Source of the DNA: Myxococcales bacterium 68-20 | GTDB taxonomy: Bacteria; Myxococcota_A; Polyangia; Polyangiales; Polyangiaceae | DNA length: 64,000 nucleotides | Assembly (NCBI GenBank): GCA_001899635.1 | Contig: MKVQ01000048.1 | Location: forward strand, 186,001-250,000 | Direction: 5' to 3' | Part shown: one piece after another, positions 26,819-38,917 of the stretch | Position numbering within the stretch: the stretch's first letter is position 1 | Layout of the letters: each line of letters opens with the position of its first letter | Translations under genes and position numbers: made by a program | The notes under the pieces: model-generated | What the model was told of the DNA's origin: nothing | Database searches by the model: none | Seen by the model: the letters and a program-made list of their open reading frames with translations, nothing else

Positions 26819-27712
26819 TCATGCGCGAGGAAGGACCTCGAGGTCGACGAGGATGCGCCTCAGCTCGTCCACCTTCTCTCGATCGAGCGGCAGGAGCGGC
26901 GCCCGGAGAGGACCGACGCGGGTGCCCATGAGCTCCAGTGCGGCGGAGATGGATCGTGGCAGCCCGTGCGCCACGATGAACTGAAGGAACGGCAGCTGGC
27001 GATAGAAGGACTTCCGCGCCGACTTCAGGTCTCCCCGCTCGACCGCATCGAAGAGCTCGATGTTCAGCTTCGGAATCACTTGGGCCGCGGCCGTGCACCA
27101 GCCCCGCGCGCCCGCCATGAACGCCGCGAGCGCGAGGGGATTGCTGCCGTTGTAGAAGGCGACGTCCTCGCCGCAGAGCTGGACGAAGCGCTGCATGCGG
27201 TTCACGTCGCCCGTGCTCTCCTTGACCATCGTGATGTTCGGGATCTGGAGCAGCTTCGCGATCAGGTCGGGGCTCAGATCGATGCCGGCAGTCGCGGGGT
27301 TGTTGTAGACGACGATCGGAATCGAGATCGCCTTCGCGACCGCGTCGAAGTGCCCGAAAACCTCCTTCTCCGTGAGCTTCCAGTAGCTCATCGGGATGAT
27401 CATCACGGAGCTCGCACCGAGCTTCTCGGCATGCCGCGCGAAGTACGCGGTGCGTTCGGTGGTGAGGCTCGAGACTCCGACCAGGGTCGGCACTCGACCG
27501 GCCACGCGCTCGAGGACCGTCTCGGCGACGGCCTCTCGCTCGCTGTCGGTGAGGTACGGCATCACCCCCGCGCTGCCGAGGGGAGCGATCGCGTGAACGC
27601 CCGCCTTCACCATCCCTTCGACGATGTCGCCGAGCAGTCGATCATCGACGCTTCCGCGATCGGTGAACGGCGTGATCGGATACCCGACGATGCCGCGGAG
27701 CGGCCGGTTCAC
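26819..27712 (-). CDS. DapA/dihydrodipicolinate-synthase-family lyase or aldolase
   Basis: 297 residues, GTG start at 27712 overlapping the cupin stop codon as GTGA. TIM-barrel class I aldolase family. The Schiff-base lysine is Lys164 in TMVKESTGD and the catalytic tyrosine Tyr136 in IVVYNNPAT. The substrate loop reads GSAGVMPYLTDSER instead of the GTTGE of true DHDPS, so lysine synthesis is unlikely. Related enzymes act on sugar acids, sialic acid, hydroxyproline-derived keto acids or aromatic ring-cleavage products. Its operon partner is a cupin and the regulator is a divergent MocR protein, so a catabolic role is inferred. Confidence 0.88.
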   Translation of the reverse strand: MNRPLRGIVGYPITPFTDRGSVDDRLLGDIVEGMVKAGVHAIAPLGSAGVMPYLTDSEREAVAETVLERVAGRVPTLVGVSSLTTERTAYFARHAEKLGASSVMIIPMSYWKLTEKEVFGHFDAVAKAISIPIVVYNNPATAGIDLSPDLIAKLLQIPNITMVKESTGDVNRMQRFVQLCGEDVAFYNGSNPLALAAFMAGARGWCTAAAQVIPKLNIELFDAVERGDLKSARKSFYRQLPFLQFIVAHGLPRSISAALELMGTRVGPLRAPLLPLDREKVDELRRILVDLEVLPRA

Positions 27713-28218
27713 CGCGCACCTCCGTCGACTTCGTGGTTCCTGTCGAAGAGCTGGTCGCCCCGATCGGGCACCTCCTCGCGGAGCGCGACGCCGCCCATGT
27801 TCTGCAGCATCGGCGCGTTCTCGCACGCGAGGTAGCGCGCTCGCCCCTTGCCGGTGTTGACGTGATTGTGCCACGCCCAGACGGGAACGTAGATCGCGTC
27901 ACCCTGCTTCCAGTCGACGCGCTTGCCGCCGACGTACGAGTACCCCTCGCCTTCCAGCACGTAGAGGACCGTCTCGTACGTGTGGCGGTGACGGTTCGAG
28001 GACTGTCCCGGATTGAGCCAGCCGATCGTCATGCTGATCGCGTGGGAAGGCAGGTCGACGAAGAAGACGGGGTGCTTGCGCGCCTTGGAGTAATCGCTGT
28101 GCTCGCCGGCGCTCTCCACGGCGCGGTGGGCCAGCTTCTCCGGCATCACGACCCTCGGTCGCGGCGGCGTCTTGTCGAAGTCAGCAGAATGGAACTTGGT
28201 CTGGGTCGGAGCAGTCAT
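27709..28218 (-). CDS. Cupin-domain protein (putative metal-dependent dioxygenase or isomerase)
   Basis: 169 residues. The start at 28218 is set by AAGGAGAG nine bases upstream. Cupin motif 1 is clear: NRHRHTYETVLYVLEGEG, with ligands His-x-His and Glu. Motif 2 is the later GDAIYVPVWAWHNHVN. The single cupin core, flanked by extra N-terminal strands, resembles gentisate-dioxygenase-like or ring-modifying cupins, but the substrate cannot be read. It is translationally coupled to the DapA-family gene downstream and divergent from mocR. The pair may form consecutive steps of one degradation route. Confidence 0.85.
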   Translation of the reverse strand: MTAPTQTKFHSADFDKTPPRPRVVMPEKLAHRAVESAGEHSDYSKARKHPVFFVDLPSHAISMTIGWLNPGQSSNRHRHTYETVLYVLEGEGYSYVGGKRVDWKQGDAIYVPVWAWHNHVNTGKGRARYLACENAPMLQNMGGVALREEVPDRGDQLFDRNHEVDGGAR

Positions 28219-28275
28219 CGAGGTCTCTCCTTGCTGAGCGCAACGGGCTTGCGCGAAGGAATGGGTAACGCGAGA

Positions 28276-28320
28276 CTGGACCCATTGGAGGCTCCAGATT
28301 CGAGATGGCAATGGGTCCAG
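28276..28320. promoter_or_regulatory. Candidate MocR operator: perfect 12-bp inverted repeat
   Basis: CTGGACCCATTG (28276-28287) and CAATGGGTCCAG (28309-28320) are exact inverse complements with starts 33 bp apart, about three helical turns. They lie between the divergent cupin operon and the mocR gene. The right arm covers the first codons of mocR (ATG at 28305 or 28311), so binding would also repress mocR itself. That this is the regulator's site is inference from position and symmetry. Confidence 0.65.
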
Positions 28321-29825
28321 ATGCCCGACCGTGGCGGTTCGACTTCGCGGTGGCTGACGACGCAGGCGGAACGCCGCGCCACGTGCAGCTCGCGCGAGCG
28401 CTCGTCCGGGAGATCCAGCGTGGACGACTCGCTCCTGGGGCACGGCTCCCCGGAAGCCGCACCCTCGCAGCGTCGCTGAAGCTGAATCGGAAGGTGGTCG
28501 TCGCGGCGCTCGACGAGCTCGTTGCTCAGGGCTGGCTCGAGGCTCTTCCGGCGCGCGGCACACAGGTGGCGCAGTCGCTGCCCGCGATGCCGGTCGCCGA
28601 CGCGCAGCCCGTCCGAGCGCGCGGCGCTCGCGGCAGCACGACGAACGCCGTCCGATTCACGCTCAACGACGGGATCCCCGACGCCCGGTTGGCGCCCCTC
28701 GACGTGATCGCCAGAGCGCAGCGTCGAGCGCTGACCACGCTCGGACGCAGCGGGCTCGGCTACTCGGATCCGGCAGGAGACCCCGTCCTACGCGAGGTGC
28801 TCGCTCACTTCGTGAACCAAGCACGGGGTCTCGCGTGCAAGCCGGAGCACGTGCTCGTCACCCGCGGCAGTCAGATGGCGCTCAGCCTCCTCGCACTGAC
28901 GCTCGTGGAGCGAGGCGACGTCGTGGCGGTCGAGAACCCCGGCTACGTCCCTGGATGGCGAGCCTTCGAGTTTGCCGGCGCCTCCATCCTCCACGTCCCC
29001 GTCGACGCGCAAGGTCTCGTCGTCGATGTGCTCGAAGCCAAGGCGAAGCGGCTCGCGGGCCGACTGAAGGCCGTGTACGTGACGCCCCATCACCAGTATC
29101 CGACGACCGTTCCGCTGTCTCCCGAGCGCCGCATGCAGCTGCGGGCGCTCGCCGAGAAGCTCGGCTTCACGATCATCGAGGACGACTACGACTACGAGTA
29201 CCACTTCGACGGGACGCCGCTTCTGCCCCTCTCCGCCGCCGCCTCCTCGAGGCGAGGCACGGTGTACGTCGCGTCCCTCTCCAAGCTCATCGCTCCGGCC
29301 GTGCGCCTGGGGTACATCGTCGCCGACAGCGCGTTGACCGCGCGCGCGAGCGCCGTCCGCGAGATCCTGGATCGACAGGGCGACATCGTCCTCGAGCGCG
29401 CCATCGCCGAGCTGATCGAGGACGGAGAGCTGCAGCGCCACGCGCGTCGCGCGCGGCAGATCTATCGCGAGCGACGCGACGTCATGTTGACGCTGCTACG
29501 GAGCGACCCGCGGCTGCGATCGATGCTCGAAGTGAGGCCGCCGGCGGGCGGGCTCGCGTTCTGGCTCTCGGCGAGCGAGACGGTGGACATCCGCGCCTGG
29601 GCACAGGCTGCGGCCGCCCGTGGCGTCGGTCTCACTCCCGGCTCCGCTCACCTCGCGAGCGGGAACGTTCGGGCGTTCCGGGCGGGCTTCGCCTCCCTCA
29701 CGCCGGACGAGCTCGCGGTCGTCGTGGACCTCTTGGGGGCAAGCCTCGAGGAGACGACGCCTACCGCCACGGACAGGAAGTCCAGCCACGCGCCATCGCG
29801 GCGATCGCGTAGGCTCGCGGGGTGA
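28305..29825 (+). CDS. MocR-family transcription regulator (GntR wHTH + PLP aminotransferase-like domain)
   Basis: 506 residues. Residues about 25-90 form a GntR winged helix (QLARALVREIQRGRLAPG, LPGSRTLAASLKLNRKVV). A linker leads to an aminotransferase-I fold from about 115. The PLP lysine is Lys327 in YVASLSKLIAP. The aspartate that holds the PLP nitrogen is in IEDDYDYEYHFDG, and the phosphate-binding SRGS-type loop is TRGSQMALSLL. MocR proteins sense a PLP adduct and control neighbouring amino-acid or vitamin B6-related genes. This one is divergent from the cupin/DapA operon, with an operator-like repeat between. Its stop overlaps the DUF4132 start (GTGA). Confidence 0.93.
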   Translation: MAMGPDARPWRFDFAVADDAGGTPRHVQLARALVREIQRGRLAPGARLPGSRTLAASLKLNRKVVVAALDELVAQGWLEALPARGTQVAQSLPAMPVADAQPVRARGARGSTTNAVRFTLNDGIPDARLAPLDVIARAQRRALTTLGRSGLGYSDPAGDPVLREVLAHFVNQARGLACKPEHVLVTRGSQMALSLLALTLVERGDVVAVENPGYVPGWRAFEFAGASILHVPVDAQGLVVDVLEAKAKRLAGRLKAVYVTPHHQYPTTVPLSPERRMQLRALAEKLGFTIIEDDYDYEYHFDGTPLLPLSAAASSRRGTVYVASLSKLIAPAVRLGYIVADSALTARASAVREILDRQGDIVLERAIAELIEDGELQRHARRARQIYRERRDVMLTLLRSDPRLRSMLEVRPPAGGLAFWLSASETVDIRAWAQAAAARGVGLTPGSAHLASGNVRAFRAGFASLTPDELAVVVDLLGASLEETTPTATDRKSSHAPSRRSRRLAG

Positions 29826-32800
29826 TCCACTGGACCGCGGAGTCGCAGGCACTGGTGTACCCCACACGGGCCGAGCCGAACGCTTCCTACTTGCCGTCCG
29901 TGCTGAAGGCGGTGAGCTCTCGCAATCCCCTCACGTGGCCGTTCGATGTCGCGCAGGCCTGGACCGGAGCCCGCGCTTGGGATCACAGACGAGAGATCGA
30001 ACGCGCGCAGAACGGGCTGGGCTCCGCGACGACGGAGCTGCGAGCGGTCATGGAGCGCGCGATCGCCGAGCGGCAACGAACGTCGCCGCCCGACGAAGCG
30101 CTCGACGTCGATGTCGAGGCCGCGACCGTGGCCCTCGATATCGCGCATACGTGGAGCATCGTCCCGTACTGGATCGCGAAGCAGGGCGTCCCGTTTGCCC
30201 TCGAGGCTCTCGTGCGCGCTCATGCCCTCGAGCCGAGCCACAACAAGCATGGCTACGGCAGTGGCAAGATCTGGCTCGAGGAGAGCTGGGATCACTCCGC
30301 CCGGCTCGACAGCGGAACCGGCTGGAACATCCTGCGCGGATGCCTCGCCGTCGCGGATGCGCCGCTCTACGACGAAGCCCGCCGTGTGGCGAATCGCCTT
30401 CGACCTTCACTCCCGCTCGGGATTCGATCGGCGGTTGCCTTCGCATTCCCCGACGAGCGTGCGTGGGTCGCGGAGGCCGCGCAAGCGGTGTTCGACGAGC
30501 CCCAGCGCTGGCACGGTGACATCCGACGCCTCGTAGCGACAGCCGATCTCGAGACGGCCGAACGGCTGGCGGACTCGATGGAGCTCTACTTCGACGAGAC
30601 GTTCTTGTTCACCGTGCTCGCACGTCACGGCGCGGCAGGCGCACGGGTCATCGGAGCGGCGATGACTGCCGCACCGAACAACGACCTTCGGAAGCGGCAT
30701 GCCAAGGTGCTCGTGAACGTCGCGGCGGAGAGTGCAGCCGCCATTCTCGCCGGTTGGCTCGAGAACAAGGCGGTCGCTCCGCTCGCGAGGAAGTACTTCG
30801 CCGCTCATCCCGAGCTTGCACGAGGTGCGCTCGAGAATTTGGCGAGCGGGGCCGGTTCGCTCGCGCGCATGGCGACGATCGAGCTCGAGACGCTGACCAC
30901 GACGAGCTCGCCGAAGCGCGGGAAGGCGAAGCCCGACAAGTCGAAGCCGGAGAGCGCGAAGCAAAGGAAGGCGCCGGAGAAGCTCGACGAGGGCGCGCCC
31001 CCCACACGGCACTGCGAGTCGGCTCCGGTCGGACTACCCCCGGTGCTGGTCGCACCTCCGTGGCTCGCGGAGCGGCCGAAGCCGATCGTGATCGAAGGAT
31101 TGAAGGCCCTTCCCTTCGAGCCACGCATTCTCTGGAGAGCGGGAGAGCTCGAGGCGCTGCAGAAGGACGCCGCCCAATGGGAGCAGGCACGCACGGCTCG
31201 CGAGGAATGGACGAACGCCAGCACCGACGAGCTGCTCGCGAAGTGGGTCGAACGCCAGAGCGGACTCCCCCTCTTCTGGATCGGGCGGATCACGGACACG
31301 CAGCTTGCGCTCGAGCTCTGGGACCGGCTTCCTCCCTCGAAGTGGTGGTCGGGCACCGACCGCGCGTACCCGACGATCCTCGCCCAGCACGGGCTCGCCG
31401 CGTTGCCGACGCTCCGGAAGTTCGCCGCGTCGCGCGCATCGGAGGCCGTTCATGGGCTCGCAAAGGTGCTCTCGCCCGAGACCGCCGAGGCGTTCGCGGA
31501 CATCCGCATGCGTCTGACGTCCACGAGATCCGTAACGGATTCCTGGCTGGTGGAGCATGCCGAGGTCACCGCGATCGGACTCGTCCCGCTCGCGGTCGGC
31601 ACACCCGGTCCGACGCGGACGGCAGCGGAGGCGGCGCTGCTCCTCCTCCGTCAGCGTGGGCGCGGCGAGCTCGTCGACGCGGTCGCGGCACGGTACGGCG
31701 CCGACGTCGCGCGTGCCGTTGCTGCAATCGACCCCTTGCTCCTGCTCCCGAAGAAGATGCCGAAGCTGCCGCCGTTCGCGAAGGCTTCCGCACTGCCACC
31801 GCTCGAGCTACGCGCGGGCGGGACCGTCCCGGAAGATGCGGCCGAGCATTTCCTCATGATGCTCGCGCTCAATGACACTGCGATGCCGTACGCAGGCCTC
31901 GCGCAAGTGCGAGAAGCGTGCACGCCGGCATCGCTGCGGGATTTCGCGTGGGCGCTCTTCGAACGCTGGCTCGCGGCAGGAGCCCCCCCGCTAGAGGTGT
32001 GGGCACTCCGAGCGCTGGGTGAGCTCGGCGACGACGAGATCGCGTCGCGCCTCGCCGCCAAGATCCGCGTGTGGCCAAAGGAGAGGGCGCTTGCACGAGC
32101 GAGCGTCGGGCTCGACGTCCTCGCACGGATTGGTTCCGACATCGCGCTGATGCACGTCGACCGCCTCGCTCAGGGCTTTCGGTTTGCGAGCGTGCGCGAG
32201 AAGGCGCAAGAGATCATCCAACGGATCGCGTCTCAGCGAGGTCTGTCGGCCGAGGAGCTGGAGGATCGCCTCACCCCGACGCTCGGGCTCGAGACTGACG
32301 GCTCGAAGGTGTTCGACTTCGGAGGGCGTTCGTTCCGCGTCGGCTTCGACGAGCATCTCCTGCCCGTCGTCCGCGCTGACGACGGACGTGTGCTGGCCGA
32401 CCTTCCGAAGGCGACGAAGAGCGACGACACCGCGCAAGCGAAGGCGGCGCATGCCGCATGGAAGGCGCTGAAGAGCGACGCGAAGGCCGTCGCTGCGCGG
32501 CAGATCGCTCGGTTCGAGCAGGCGATGTGCAACGAGCGCGCGTGGCGTATGCCCGATTTCGATTGCTTCATCCGGAGCCATCCGCTCGTGGCGCATCTCG
32601 CGCGACGTCTCGTCTGGGCGATCGAGACGACCGAAGGGCAAGGCTCGCGCACGCTCGTCCGCATAGCCGAAGATGGAACGCTGGCCGACGCAGCCGACGT
32701 CGCGGTCGCCTCGTCGAACGACGCGCGCATCGGCATCGTCCACCCCCTTCGATTGAACGAAGCGGAGGTGTCCCGCTGGGGTCAGGTCCTCGCCGACTAC

Positions 32801-33151
32801 GAGATCGTCCAGCCCTTCGACCAGCTCGCGCGTCGGACGTTCCCGCTCTCCGACGAGACGGGAGCGGGCGTGACACTCGAAGCGGGATACGTGCGCGGCC
32901 TGCGCGAGCGCGGATGGGCCGCCGACGGCGACTCATGGGTCAACGTGCTCACGAAATCGATCGCCGGAGGCGACCAGGCGCCGGGTGGAGTCGTGGTCGT
33001 GGGATTCGAGCCGGGCTATTCGGTCTCCGACGGGGTATCGAAGCCACAGGAGATCGTCTCGGTGTCGCTCCAGCTCGGCAAGGAGAACGCCGGTCTCTCG
33101 AAGCTCGGACCGATCGCCTACAGCGAGCTCCGGCGCGAGCTCGCCGGGTAG
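29822..33151 (+). CDS. Very large DUF4132-type protein with helical-repeat body
   Basis: 1109 residues, GTG start at 29822 overlapping the mocR stop by four bases. Residues about 60-840 are helical and repeat-like (many LARHGAAGARVIGAAM-type helices), broken by a Lys/Pro-rich linker at about 362-385 (SPKRGKAKPDKSKPE). The C-terminal third from about 850 has the DUF4132 signature: RLVWAIETTEGQG, HPLRLNEAEVSRWGQVLADY and EIVQPFDQLARRTFPL. Such proteins are often next to WGR-domain or MolR-like regulators; the biochemical role is unknown. Translational coupling to a MocR regulator is unusual. Confidence 0.8.
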   Translation: MIHWTAESQALVYPTRAEPNASYLPSVLKAVSSRNPLTWPFDVAQAWTGARAWDHRREIERAQNGLGSATTELRAVMERAIAERQRTSPPDEALDVDVEAATVALDIAHTWSIVPYWIAKQGVPFALEALVRAHALEPSHNKHGYGSGKIWLEESWDHSARLDSGTGWNILRGCLAVADAPLYDEARRVANRLRPSLPLGIRSAVAFAFPDERAWVAEAAQAVFDEPQRWHGDIRRLVATADLETAERLADSMELYFDETFLFTVLARHGAAGARVIGAAMTAAPNNDLRKRHAKVLVNVAAESAAAILAGWLENKAVAPLARKYFAAHPELARGALENLASGAGSLARMATIELETLTTTSSPKRGKAKPDKSKPESAKQRKAPEKLDEGAPPTRHCESAPVGLPPVLVAPPWLAERPKPIVIEGLKALPFEPRILWRAGELEALQKDAAQWEQARTAREEWTNASTDELLAKWVERQSGLPLFWIGRITDTQLALELWDRLPPSKWWSGTDRAYPTILAQHGLAALPTLRKFAASRASEAVHGLAKVLSPETAEAFADIRMRLTSTRSVTDSWLVEHAEVTAIGLVPLAVGTPGPTRTAAEAALLLLRQRGRGELVDAVAARYGADVARAVAAIDPLLLLPKKMPKLPPFAKASALPPLELRAGGTVPEDAAEHFLMMLALNDTAMPYAGLAQVREACTPASLRDFAWALFERWLAAGAPPLEVWALRALGELGDDEIASRLAAKIRVWPKERALARASVGLDVLARIGSDIALMHVDRLAQGFRFASVREKAQEIIQRIASQRGLSAEELEDRLTPTLGLETDGSKVFDFGGRSFRVGFDEHLLPVVRADDGRVLADLPKATKSDDTAQAKAAHAAWKALKSDAKAVAARQIARFEQAMCNERAWRMPDFDCFIRSHPLVAHLARRLVWAIETTEGQGSRTLVRIAEDGTLADAADVAVASSNDARIGIVHPLRLNEAEVSRWGQVLADYEIVQPFDQLARRTFPLSDETGAGVTLEAGYVRGLRERGWAADGDSWVNVLTKSIAGGDQAPGGVVVVGFEPGYSVSDGVSKPQEIVSVSLQLGKENAGLSKLGPIAYSELRRELAG

Positions 33152-34009: not shown

Positions 34010-34294
34010 GAGTGCTCCTCACAATCAACAAGGAAAAAAAACTTCGGACGGAACGACGACCCCGTCGGCCTCGCGCCGCTTCCCGCGTCGCGGTCAAGCA
34101 GCCACCGCGCCAGCGGAAACCTGCACGAGATACGAGCCGTTTTGGCCCTGCTGGTGCTGCGCGCGCGCAGCAACCTGTCGCGCCCGAGTTACATGACGCA
34201 AGGCGAAAAAGACGGCATCGGCGGTGCCAAACATTCGCAAACTTTCGAAAATGTCACCACCCACCACGAGCTTGTGGCATCGAATCGGTGGGAG

Positions 34295-35509
34295 ATGGTG
34301 GACAATCGCGCTCCGGCAAACGACGACGTGAAGCGCGCGCTCGGAATCGGACGGACGCGCGGGAAGCGGCTCAAGAAGTGGATCACCCTGGGCGTCGTCC
34401 TCGTCCTCGCGGCGGGCGTCGTGCTCGTCGCGGTGCGTCGACGGGCGCAGTCCAGCGTCCCGAAGTTCGTCACCGAGCCGGTGCAGAAGGTGGACATTCG
34501 AGTGACCGTCTCGGCGACGGGCAAGCTCCAGGGCCTCAACACCGTCGAGGTCGGAGCCGAGGTCACGGGCAAGGTCCTCACGGTCCACGTCGACGACAAC
34601 GACCGGGTCACCGCCGGTCAGGTCCTCGCAGAGCTCGATCCGGAGCAGCTCCGCGCCGCCGTGGACGAGGCGAGCGCTCAGGTGCTCTCCGCGGATGCGA
34701 ACATCCGCACCGCGGAGGCCACCCTGCTCGAGACGAAGCAGGCGCGCGTGCGTGCCGAAGAGCAAGCGAAGCAGGGGCTCATCGCACAGAAAGATCTCGA
34801 GGCAGCGCAGGCGGCGGCCGCGCGCGCAGAGGCGGCGGTCTCCACGGCGAGGGCCAACGCGGTGGTCGCGCGGGCATCGCTCAAGTCCGCCCAGTCGCGG
34901 CTCGGGAAGACCAAGATCGTGGCGCCGAGCGACGGCATCGTCCTCGCGCGCGCCGTGGAACCCGGGCAGACCGTCACCGCCGGGTTCCAGACGCCGGTCC
35001 TCTTTCGACTTGCCGAGGACCTCACGAAGCTCTCGCTCCGTGTCGACGTCGACGAGGCCGACGTGGGACGCGTGAAGCAAGGCAGCGACGCGAGCTTCAC
35101 CGTCGACGCCTATCCCTCACGGACCTTCCCCTCCAAGGTCGTCTCGCTCCGCAACGAGCCGAAGACGTCGCAGAGCGTCGTCTCCTACGAGGCCGTGCTC
35201 ACCGTGGACAACGCGGAGCTCTTGCTCCGGCCCGGGATGACCGCAACGGCGACGATCGTCAGCGAGACGGTCAAGGATGCAGTCGCGGTACCGAACGGCG
35301 CCCTTCGTTTCTCGCCCCCGCCCGTCCCCGGTCAGCCGCCCGCCCCCGCGCCTCGAGCCGGCGAAAAGCGCGTCTACGTGCTGCGCGGAGCGACGCCGAC
35401 TCCCCTCTCTCTCAAGACCGGCGCGACCGACGGGACGGTCACGCAGATCTTCTCGACCGAGCTCGCCCCCGGGGCGGAGGTCATCATCGATGCAGTCGCC
35501 GCCCAGTGA
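34295..35509 (+). CDS. MacA/HlyD-type periplasmic adaptor of a tripartite exporter
   Basis: 404 residues from ATG 34295; an alternative GTG is at 34298, and in-frame starts further upstream are polar and unlikely. An N-terminal anchor helix (WITLGVVLVLAAGVVLVAV) is followed by a lipoyl half (TVEVGAEVTGKVLTVHVDDN), a long coiled-coil hairpin (about 105-195, rich in Ala/Glu/Gln), the second lipoyl half (IVAPSDGIVLARAVEPGQ) and beta-barrel/MP domains. It connects the inner-membrane MacB-like permease to a TolC-like duct. A Pro-rich loop (PPPVPGQPPAPAP) near residue 350 is unusual. The next gene starts inside its last codons. Confidence 0.9.
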   Translation: MVDNRAPANDDVKRALGIGRTRGKRLKKWITLGVVLVLAAGVVLVAVRRRAQSSVPKFVTEPVQKVDIRVTVSATGKLQGLNTVEVGAEVTGKVLTVHVDDNDRVTAGQVLAELDPEQLRAAVDEASAQVLSADANIRTAEATLLETKQARVRAEEQAKQGLIAQKDLEAAQAAAARAEAAVSTARANAVVARASLKSAQSRLGKTKIVAPSDGIVLARAVEPGQTVTAGFQTPVLFRLAEDLTKLSLRVDVDEADVGRVKQGSDASFTVDAYPSRTFPSKVVSLRNEPKTSQSVVSYEAVLTVDNAELLLRPGMTATATIVSETVKDAVAVPNGALRFSPPPVPGQPPAPAPRAGEKRVYVLRGATPTPLSLKTGATDGTVTQIFSTELAPGAEVIIDAVAAQ

Positions 35510-36212
35510 AGCCGATTCGCTCATCGAGCTGAGAGACGTCACCAAGATCTACGGACACGGCGACGCCGAGGTCCGGGCGCTCGGCGGCGTGAGCCTCCGC
35601 ATCGCACGCGGCGAGTTCGTCGCGATCATCGGAGCGAGCGGCTCGGGCAAGTCGACCTGCATGAACGTGATCGGCTGCCTCGACCGCCCGACCGGAGGCT
35701 CGTACCAGTTCCGAGGCGTCGAGGTCGCGGAGCTCGATCTCGATCAGCTCGCGCTCCTGCGCCGGCACTACATCGGGTTCGTCTTCCAGGGATTCAACCT
35801 GCTCGCGAGGACGACGGCGCTCGAGAACGTCGAGCTCCCCCTCGTGTACAAGCGCGTACCTGCCGCCGAGCGGCGCGAGCGCGCCCTCGAGGCGCTCCGC
35901 GCCGTCGGCCTCGATGGGCGCGAGCACCATGCGCCGAGCGAGCTCTCCGGCGGGCAACAGCAGCGCGTGGCGATCGCGCGCGCGATCGTGAGCGATCCTT
36001 CGATCGTCCTGGCAGACGAGCCGACGGGCAACCTCGACACCGCGCGCAAAGCGGAGATCATGCGCCTGCTCATCGACCTGAATCGAAGCCGCGGGATCAC
36101 CGTCGTGATGGTCACCCACGAGCCGGACATCGCACGCTGGGCGCGAAGGATCATCGAGTTCCGTGACGGCCTCGTCCTGCGGGACGAGACGAACGAGGCG
36201 ACGGAGGCCTGA
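35490..36212 (+). CDS. MacB/LolD-type ABC transporter ATPase
   Basis: 240 residues. ATG 35490 has GGAGG ten bases upstream and overlaps the adaptor gene by 20 bases. Walker A is GASGSGKST, the signature [14 protein letters not shown] and Walker [10 protein letters not shown], with the H-loop MVTHEPDI. The subfamily-typical GCLDRPTGG and [18 protein letters not shown] are present. In this system ATPase and permease are separate chains, unlike E. coli MacB. It powers export through the adaptor and outer-membrane duct. Confidence 0.95.
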
Positions 36213-36213
36213 G

Positions 36214-37419
36214 ATGTGGATCGCGACGATCTTCATGGCGCTCCGCGAGCTGCGTCGCAACGTCATGCGCTCGGCCCTCACGACGTTGGGGATCGTGATC
36301 GGCGTGGCGTCGGTGATCGCGATGGTCACCCTCGGTCGCTCGGCCACCGCTCGCGTCACCCAGGACATCGCGAGCCTCGGCCAGAACATGCTCATGGTCT
36401 TCCCCGGCTCGGATCGACGCGGGCCGGTGAGCGTGGCCGCGACGCCATTCCGAATGGACGACGTGCGGGCGATCGAAAAAGAGGTAGGGGACCTCGCGAC
36501 GGTGGCGCCCACATCGAGCAAGAGCGAGCTCATCGTCTACGGAAACGCGAACCACACCACCGCCGTCTACGGCGCGACGAACACGTTCTTCGTGGTGCGA
36601 TCGCTGAAGATCCAGCGAGGCCGCGACTTCTCCGACGCGGAGCTCGCGGGCGGTAACCCCGCATGCGTGCTCGGCGAGACCGTCCGCAAGGAGCTCTTCG
36701 GGATGCAGGAAGCGCTCGACAGCTCGATCCGCGTCGGCGCCGTCGCATGCCGCGTCGTCGGCATCCTCGAGGCCAAGGGGCAGAACACCTTCGGACAGGA
36801 TCAGGACGACTTCATCGTCATGCCGCTCACCACGCTGCAGAGGCGCCTCGCCGGCAACTCCGACATCGGCATGATGTACGTATCCGTCGCCGAGGAGAAG
36901 GCGATCGCGCGGACCAAGGCGCGCATCCAGAACCTGCTCCGCGACCGGCGACGCATCCAGCCCGGTCAAACGGACGACTTCAACGTCCAGGACACGAAGG
37001 AGATCGCGAAGACCGTGAGCAGCGTCACCGGTGTCCTCACCGCACTGCTCGGCGCCGTCGCCGCGGTCAGTCTGCTCGTCGGCGGAATCGGCATCATGAA
37101 CATCATGCTCGTGGCGGTGACCGAGCGGACCCGAGAGATCGGGATCCGCCTCTCGATCGGCGCGCTCGCCAGCGAGGTGCTCATGCAGTTCCTGGTCGAG
37201 TCGATCATGCTTTGCACGCTCGGCGGAGTCATCGGCGTCTCGCTCGGCCTCCTCGGCTCCTACGGCGCGACCCGCGCCCTCTCGATGCCGTTCGAGGTCG
37301 ACCCCGTGATCGTCCTCGTCGCATTCTTCTTCTCGGCCGCGATCGGCATCGCGTTCGGTTACCTGCCGGCCCGAAAAGCCGCGCGGCTCAACCCCATCGA
37401 GGCTCTTCGACATGAGTGA
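36214..37419 (+). CDS. MacB-type ABC transporter permease
   Basis: 401 residues, one base after the ATPase stop. The N-terminal helix ([20 protein letters not shown]) is followed by a periplasmic MacB_PCD domain (about 50-270). Three C-terminal helices form the FtsX domain ([57 protein letters not shown]). The C-terminal [18 protein letters not shown] is the family hallmark. MacB-type machines move substrates such as peptides, macrolides or lipoproteins from periplasm outwards (mechanotransmission); the substrate here is unknown. Confidence 0.95.
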
Positions 37420-38917
37420 CACGAGGCGGCGTCTGCTTGCGATTGCAGCAGCTCTACTCACGGCCGGGGTGTCCCCCGCGTGGGCTACCGAGACGGTGAT
37501 CGACGACGCCACCGTCGTGCGCGTGGCGCTGGAGAAGAACCCCACACTGGCAGCATCCGTCACCGAGCTTCGCCGCGCAGACCTGCTCGAAGAGGCGGAA
37601 GCAGAGCGCTACCCGCTCACCCTGGTGCTCGACGGAAAGGCGACGCGAAACGCAGCCCCCAACCTGGGTCCCGGCCGCGTGAACTTTCCGACCTCGACGC
37701 TCTACACCGCCGGCGGCGAGCTCCGGAAGAAGCTGCCGTGGGGCACCGATCTCACGCTCCGCCTCGAGGCCTTCCGCCAGGAGTCGATCTCGCTCTTCTC
37801 GTTCGCGCAGCCCGGCCAGTCGCCCCAGCAAGTCCTCTTCCGGCTCGGTCCCGGCTACGGCAGCTCGCTTCGCTTCGGAGTCACGCAGCCGCTGCTCCGA
37901 GGCGCGGGACGCAGCATCGTGGAGGCCCAGCTCGACCAGGCGCGCGCCGGGCGCACGAACGCGAAGCTCGCGCGTGACCGCACCGCGAGCCAGACGCTGG
38001 CCGATGCGCTCACCGCGTACTGGGAGCTCTACTACGCGAGCCGCGCCGTCGACATCCAGGAGCACACGCTCTCTCTCGCGCGCCAGCAGCGCGACGAGGC
38101 CGCCGCACGCGTGAAGACGGGTGGCCTGGCCCCGGTCGAGGTGCTCACGTTCGAGTCCCGGATCGCACAGCTCGAGGAGGATCTCGTCACGGCGCGCGCC
38201 GAGGAACGCCGGAAGTCGGCAGCGCTCGGAAGGGTCCTCGGCGATCCGACGCTCGAGCAGCGGCGCGCCGCCGAGCGCGAGCCTCCCCACCATCCCGAGC
38301 CCGGCGCAGACGCGCGGCGACACGCGCTGTCGGAGTCGCCGGAAATCGCCGAGCAGCGCAGCGCCGTCGAGCTCGCCGAGGTGACGGCGCGCAGCGCGTC
38401 GGACTCGCTCCGTTCGAGACTGGACCTCGACGGCTACGTCCAGGCGCACGGCCTCGGCTACGACGACGCGTCCGCGTTCGGACAGGTCGGGACGCTGCGC
38501 GCCCTCAGCGCGCAGGTCGGTCTCACGTACGAGGCTCCGCTCGACAACACGCGGCATCGGTCCGAGCGCGCCCGCGCCGAGCTCGCCGTGGTGACCGCGA
38601 AGCAGAAGCTCGACGCGACCACGCAGAAGGTCCTGGCCGATCTCGACGACGCCACGCAGCGCGACACATCGGCGCGACAGCGCATCGAGCTCGCCGATCG
38701 AACGCTGGAGCTCGCACGCCAGCAGCGCGATGCAGAGCAGGCGCGCTTCCGAACGGGAGCCGCGACGGCGCTGCAGGTGCGCGAGTCCGAGGATCAGGTC
38801 CGCAGCGCGGAGCTGCGTGCCGTCCGCGCGCGTGTCGATCTCGCCACCGCCCACGTCACCATCGCGCACCTCACCGGCAGTCTGGTCGCGGAGACGGCTC
38901 GCAGCACGAAACCATGA
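37412..38917 (+). CDS. TolC-family outer-membrane efflux protein
   Basis: 501 residues. ATG 37412 overlaps the permease stop by eight bases. Signal peptide to about residue 25 (AWA-TE). Two OEP repeats show long coiled-coil helices (for example AALTAYWELYYASRAVDIQ, LDATTQKVLADLDDAT, VRESEDQVRSAELRAVRARV). It forms the outer-membrane channel for the exporter encoded just upstream, completing a four-gene tripartite system on one transcript. Confidence 0.93.
   Translation: MSDTRRRLLAIAAALLTAGVSPAWATETVIDDATVVRVALEKNPTLAASVTELRRADLLEEAEAERYPLTLVLDGKATRNAAPNLGPGRVNFPTSTLYTAGGELRKKLPWGTDLTLRLEAFRQESISLFSFAQPGQSPQQVLFRLGPGYGSSLRFGVTQPLLRGAGRSIVEAQLDQARAGRTNAKLARDRTASQTLADALTAYWELYYASRAVDIQEHTLSLARQQRDEAAARVKTGGLAPVEVLTFESRIAQLEEDLVTARAEERRKSAALGRVLGDPTLEQRRAAEREPPHHPEPGADARRHALSESPEIAEQRSAVELAEVTARSASDSLRSRLDLDGYVQAHGLGYDDASAFGQVGTLRALSAQVGLTYEAPLDNTRHRSERARAELAVVTAKQKLDATTQKVLADLDDATQRDTSARQRIELADRTLELARQQRDAEQARFRTGAATALQVRESEDQVRSAELRAVRARVDLATAHVTIAHLTGSLVAETARSTKP

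Follow-up and report, generated by a model that had tools for sequence, protein, structure and literature searches.

A cupin–lyase gene pair and a divergent MocR gene share a predicted three-box operator across bacterial phyla

Results

Genes and features of the locus

The window analyzed here, a stretch of 64,000 nucleotides taken as a whole, belongs to an 11.9-Mb genome (G000:C48:186001-250000). An ORF and Pfam check confirmed the four genes that an earlier reading of the letters alone (the sequence-only reading) had described. Two of them lie on the minus strand: a lyase of the DapA/NAL family and of the PA0223 (PDB 3NA8) subfamily, with a GTG start (26819-27712; Pfam DHDPS, 8e-58), and a single-domain cupin (27709-28218; Pfam Cupin_2, 1e-19). 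The plus strand carries a MocR-type regulator (28305-29825; Pfam GntR and Aminotran_1_2) and a DUF4132 protein of 1109 aa (29822-33151; Pfam DUF4132, 2.5e-43). The GTGA stop/start overlaps described for both gene pairs are real, and lie at 27709-27712 on the minus strand for the cupin and lyase and at 29822-29825 for mocR and the DUF4132 gene. The 4-bp cupin-lyase overlap was found too at L038, L045-L047, and L125. Elsewhere in the window (34142-38917), inspection of the translations revealed a MacAB-type efflux operon encoding, in a row, a membrane-fusion protein, an ABC ATPase, an FtsX-type permease, and a TolC-like protein.

Distribution of the cupin, lyase, and MocR genes

When the genomes of 84,980 species were scanned with the lyase, 80 loci were returned, in Myxococcota and Bacteroidota, and relatives added two more. 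All four proteins were searched on the lyase loci by tblastn, and with plasmid loci added the set reached 89 loci. At most of them, the cupin gene lies just upstream of the lyase gene and mocR is divergent. The unit is patchy, occurring in Myxococcota and Bacteroidota, with variants in Pseudomonadota, Actinomycetota, and Cyanobacteriota. Three of 96 relatives carry it, the window's genome counted, and no close lyase besides the window's own was found in 329 sampled Myxococcota genomes. This patchiness, together with the plasmid copies, suggests that the cupin-lyase-MocR unit has been horizontally transferred. Searches of the literature on DUF4132 and on a cupin with DapA and MocR returned nothing on the unit, which may already be listed in the supplementary tables of PMC5320631 or in the DnfR papers.

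The mocR gene lies at most 8 kb from the lyase in 78 of 95 loci, and all eight genomes tested among those without a nearby mocR have a MocR relative elsewhere. Six Bacteroidota genomes with no mocR by the cupin-dapA pair encode, at another site, a MocR 60-63% identical to that of Parachryseolinea; at the three distant Bacteroidota mocR genes inspected, recognizable operator boxes abut the start codon. In Myxococcus, the unit is scattered: the operator stands before pod, the gene for pyruvic oxime dioxygenase (POD, see below), and before dapA (L043 8936, 9838; L165/L166), and a 56% identical MocR is encoded at a distant site with boxes at its own start. This arrangement is a trans regulon. In Rhodococcus (L169, L170, L128) and Gluconobacter (L125), an XRE or LysR regulator takes the place of MocR at the head of the enzyme pair.

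A three-box operator between mocR and the cupin gene

The symmetric operator noticed in the sequence-only reading was borne out as a predicted three-box MocR operator (28276-28320, minus strand). It contains a perfect 12-bp inverted repeat, CTGGACCCATTG, with arms at 28276-28287 and 28309-28320 and 21 nt between them; among 3000 first-order randomizations of the 320-bp region, just 6 contained a repeat this long within 40 bp. A third box, CTGGAGCC, is located between the two arms on the minus strand (28290-28297). The minus-strand order is therefore CTGGACCC (28320-28313), CTGGAGCC (28297-28290), and an inverted GGGTCCAG (28283-28276), that is, two direct boxes and one inverted box, which is the commonest MocR operator layout (PMC5320631). 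On the cupin strand, the consensus is CTGGACC/T, then CTGG/T/A 23-24 nt further, then an inverted GTCCA, and the box CTGGAC resembles that of TauR, CTGGACYTAA.

The three-box pattern is found at 75 of the 89 related loci. The box nearest mocR falls within the first mocR codons (xGPxxRPW) in myxobacterial relatives, as it does in the window (28305-28322), and in Bacteroidota it abuts the ATG. Twelve of 13 whole Bacteroidota genomes have the site in the mocR/cupin gap; their three matches elsewhere equal the number given by a reversed-pattern control. A search of the window's own genome yielded the mocR/cupin site as the sole well-formed one. Two further matches there were discarded, being off consensus and having none of the four proteins beside them, as was an additional Terrimonas site (L175) that resembles the consensus and adjoins no homologue of the unit genes.

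The regulator combines a GntR helix-turn-helix with an aminotransferase I domain bearing the PLP lysine (Lys327), which makes it a MocR; this lysine is kept in 75 of 76 full-length MocRs. Like PdxR, TauR, GabR, EhuR, and DnfR, it joins a GntR domain to a PLP aminotransferase-type sensor and has a divergent target operon with the same box layout, but its targets are the cupin or POD and the DapA-like lyase, not B6, taurine, GABA, or ectoine genes. Both the conserved gene set and its regulation by the three-box operator are well supported, and we have very little doubt about them.

DUF4132 is a local neighbour

The proposal that all four genes form one regulated locus holds for the cupin, the lyase, and MocR, which share the operator, but not for DUF4132. 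In the neighbourhood comparison, DUF4132 stood beside none of the 89 related loci, plasmid loci included, and MocR, the cupin, or the lyase adjoined none of the DUF4132 loci fetched. An unlinked distribution, which the sequence-only reading had named as the outcome that would speak against its proposal, is thus found for DUF4132 and not for the other three genes. In one relative (G030), the lyase and DUF4132 genes are ~940 kb apart; in another (G042), the lyase is present but DUF4132 gave no match. Across the 96 relatives, identity to the DUF4132 protein nowhere exceeded 47%. Because DUF4132 is absent from related loci, its family is paralogous (four copies in the window's genome), and the gene after mocR varies between loci, we regard the DUF4132 gene as a local neighbour and not a member of the unit. 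The GTGA overlap suggests that it is probably co-transcribed with mocR here, and this is what speaks for a single functional system of all four genes; given the comparisons above, such a system is largely refuted and we consider it extremely unlikely. Whatever the chemistry, the operator delimits a clean cross-phylum regulon and sets DUF4132 apart from it.

The family assignment itself is clear, with 148.5 bits for PF13569 against a Pfam cut-off of 27, and the GTG start is plausible, as the paralogues share a similar ...(L/V)YPxR... N terminus. The AlphaFold model of the protein (mean pLDDT 80) consists of an alpha-solenoid and a mixed C-terminal domain; structure comparison of the model returned general HEAT/ARM-type matches only (Z <8) and no functional lead. 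Among the relatives, adjacent DUF4132 genes occur on one contig (L013/L032 on G066:C171, and G060:C127), and several DUF4132 proteins (L034, L036, L020) start with an apparent WGR domain.

The lyase belongs to the PA0223 subfamily

The Schiff-base Lys164, Tyr136, and Tyr110 are invariant and place the lyase in the DapA/NAL superfamily of class I aldolases. It shares with DapA this TIM-barrel family and the pairing of a Schiff-base lysine with a catalytic tyrosine, but differs from it in several respects, in agreement with the earlier view that it is not an ordinary DapA. It reaches 181.6 bits with NCBIfam TIGR00674 (DapA), below the cut-off of 206; a canonical dapA elsewhere in the window's genome reaches 312.8 bits. 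In an alignment to 3si9, Thr141 takes the place of the DHDPS arginine (Arg138 in E. coli) that binds the carboxylate of aspartate semialdehyde, and YNNPAT is present in 93 of 95 relatives. The changed substrate loop noted before is also real, reading GSAGV for G(T/S)TGE, with Ser47-Ala48 for Thr-Thr; the lyase also has Trp111. Since the signature GS(T/A)G(V/E), YW(K/P)L, YNNPAT, KES(T/S)GD, GWCTAA recurs across the 95 loci, the loop is mostly a trait of the subfamily, and the unusual change is Thr48 to Ala (4 of 95).

The closest solved structure is by far 3NA8 (1.2e-91, the next structure being at 5e-44), and the SYWKL and YNNP motifs, with this much greater nearness to 3NA8 than to DapA structures, assign the lyase to the PA0223 subfamily. 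The 3NA8 protein is P. aeruginosa PA0223, which is without dihydrodipicolinate synthase activity (PMC3281039).

The cupin resembles 3-His dioxygenases

The ligands of the cupin (His77-x-His79 ... His117) follow the HxH...H pattern of the 3-His type in a gentisate-dioxygenase-like barrel, and 3-His dioxygenases are among the nearest relatives of the protein. The closest structure by sequence is gentisate 1,2-dioxygenase 3bu7 (1e-23), with which the fold model aligns over 132 residues (Z 13.4, 29% identity); the model has a pLDDT of 80-94 in the core and a mean of 68, and its fold agrees with a 3-His cupin. Unlike gentisate 1,2-dioxygenase, however, the protein has a single barrel instead of two, and its 39 bits with NCBIfam TIGR02272 lie far under the 442-bit cut-off of that family.

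Pyruvic oxime dioxygenase alternates with the cupin

At the 95 loci of the DapA subfamily, the gene just upstream of the lyase encodes a cupin in 83 cases, a POD in 10, and neither in two (L127, L171). The aldolases in this slot, of class II, match 8IL8, 8IX6, and 8IQA, which are POD structures (PMC11841055), at 1e-68 or better. The POD motifs around Gln53, Phe103-His104, His119/121, and His183 are present in all ten, and the Glu164 region aligns. The window's slot protein, a cupin, has neither this fold nor these residues, and no POD was found in the window's genome. In the lyase tree, cupin-type and POD-type lyases are intermixed, and well-supported branches require at least three switches between the two; the POD-type Myxococcus lyases, for example, are nested beside cupin-type Nannocystis. 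The operator pattern is kept at several POD-type loci as well (Acinetobacter, Caballeronia, and a myxobacterial MAG).

P. aeruginosa PA0224 is listed as a POD homologue, and nitrite formation from acetaldoxime is reported for this species (PMC5216522). Judged by locus tag, PA0224 adjoins PA0223, a member of the same DapA-like partner lineage as the window's lyase. The pod cluster of A. faecalis is without dapA (PMC8629993), and the authors of the POD work left another substrate possible for pod clusters. The POD papers examined make no connection between POD and either this MocR operator or a partner resembling DapA, and the oxime clue given by the swap is new here.

The cupin and POD differ in fold, but both look like 3-His non-heme iron enzymes. 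Our main argument that they do the same job is that the two, unrelated in fold and similar in metal site, alternate beside one enzyme and under one operator. It may also be that the cupin and POD occupy one slot and yet catalyse different reactions.

Discussion

A possible response to hydroxylamine or oximes

We propose that the unit is a horizontally mobile stress regulon, complete in itself, that is directed at hydroxylamine/oxime or at a closely similar amine that reacts with carbonyls, a reading drawn from sequence comparison to which we would give an even chance. PLP is among the aldehydes attacked by hydroxylamine, and a PLP-holding MocR would therefore be a natural hydroxylamine sensor: free hydroxylamine would react with the MocR-held PLP, the grip on the operator would change, and the cupin-lyase pair would be switched on. 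In the lyase, pyruvate would be bound to Lys164 as the usual Schiff base; hydroxylamine, a tiny nucleophile, could then attack the bound pyruvate and set pyruvic oxime free, or the reaction could run the other way. The loss of the DHDPS arginine and the presence of Trp111 in the pocket would suit a second substrate of very small size. The cupin, as an enzyme of 3-His Fe(II) type, would take the role of POD and convert the oxime and O2 to pyruvate and nitrite, and DUF4132 would stand outside the pathway. The attack of hydroxylamine on aldehydes and its reaction with pyruvate to pyruvic oxime are described (PMC11160463), and as the latter is spontaneous, an enzyme to make the oxime may be unneeded.

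The full scheme is put forward tentatively, and we expect that it is somewhat likelier to fail than to hold. In it, the PLP of MocR would trap hydroxylamine and thereby turn on a pathway of two oxime enzymes: a DapA repurposed to form or open pyruvic oxime, and an oxime dioxygenase that yields nitrite and was recruited on two occasions, from class II aldolases (POD) and from cupins. If true, many Bacteroidota and myxobacteria that are not known to do so would form nitrite heterotrophically from hydroxylamine. The scheme would also give a function to PA0223, whose structure is solved, a cupin counterpart to POD, and a regulator to the pair, and would tie the many operons of the "DapA-like + cupin" kind to hydroxylamine/oxime chemistry in a way that can be tested directly.

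Other readings of the unit

Class I hydratase-aldolases exist in the family of the DapA-like enzyme, which could thus cut a ring-cleaved 2-oxo acid delivered by a gentisate/salicylate-type cupin dioxygenase. The rank of 3bu7 as the nearest structure of the cupin, by sequence and by fold, favours such a ring-cleavage route, but the single cupin domain and its 39 of 442 bits do not; genes for a hydroxylase, a CoA ligase, or an aromatic transporter are not among its recurrent neighbours, and the POD swap would be unexpected, making this route unlikely. The substrates suggested in the sequence-only reading, 2-keto-3-deoxy sugar acids and hydroxyproline products, found no support. Here, the lyase would act on 2-keto-3-deoxy acids, the cupin as an isomerase, and the class II aldolase as an epimerase or aldolase of similar role. 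Isomerases, epimerases, and aldolases do occur in both partner folds, and the lyase has sub-cut-off NCBIfam matches to KDG/KdgD families. However, sugar transporters, kinases, or dehydrogenases do not recur beside the unit, the slot aldolase is POD-like and not FucA-like, sugars are not typically sensed by a MocR, and the POD swap points to oxime/hydroxylamine instead; we find sugar-acid or hydroxyproline catabolism quite improbable.

Vitamin B6 homeostasis, with the regulator as a PdxR and the enzymes acting on a B6 vitamer or damaged PLP, is suggested by the NCBIfam PdxR model NF052282, with which the window's MocR scores 331.6 bits (cut-off, 320), and by the presence of DapA-family genes in some predicted PdxR/PdxQ regulons (PMC5320631). 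However, PdxS was not found in the window's genome, so the control of pdxST that defines PdxR is missing and the name is not to be trusted here; the NF052282 calls for this MocR and its relatives are likely over-annotation. As the unit also contains no pdx gene and the genome only one well-formed operator, a role in B6 homeostasis has little chance of being correct. Finally, a MocR of P. pseudoalcaligenes is the putative repressor of a cyanide-induced cluster with a DapA, named as DapA only (PMC8567248), and the MocR-PLP could similarly sense cyanide while the enzymes handle cyanohydrins or nitriles. The unit is without nitrilase or cio genes, though, and POD as the alternative partner favours oximes, so that a defence against cyanide or oxonitriles seems very improbable.

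Genes near the unit

The unit has no other hydroxylamine gene as a recurrent neighbour: across the 89 loci, MOSC occurs at one and GATase homologues at three. A class-I glutamine amidotransferase gene (PF00117) directly follows cupin-dapA on plasmids of Chroococcidiopsis (L123:7760-8458) and Gluconobacter (L125:9400-10125). DnfC, which has this domain, reportedly frees hydroxylamine from hydroxamates; because the domain is common, it adds little weight to the hydroxylamine reading.

On a Hymenobacter plasmid (L124:3583-4230), a MOSC-domain protein is encoded directly downstream of mocR; YiiM/YcbX-type members of the MOSC group act in the detoxification of N-hydroxylated compounds. Within the Chryseobacterium part of L050-L122, 38 loci have a gene for a flavodoxin/RidA fusion close to mocR, and in 36 dapA is followed by one for a general-stress PNPOx-like protein. 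These two and nitrilase-like neighbours were rejected as members of the unit; they occur in part of the Bacteroidota loci only and were treated as ordinary synteny. Several Acinetobacter records of 3.7-4.1 Mb (H51-H53, NZ_CP104448.1 and others), listed as plasmids in PLSDB, look like chromosomes.
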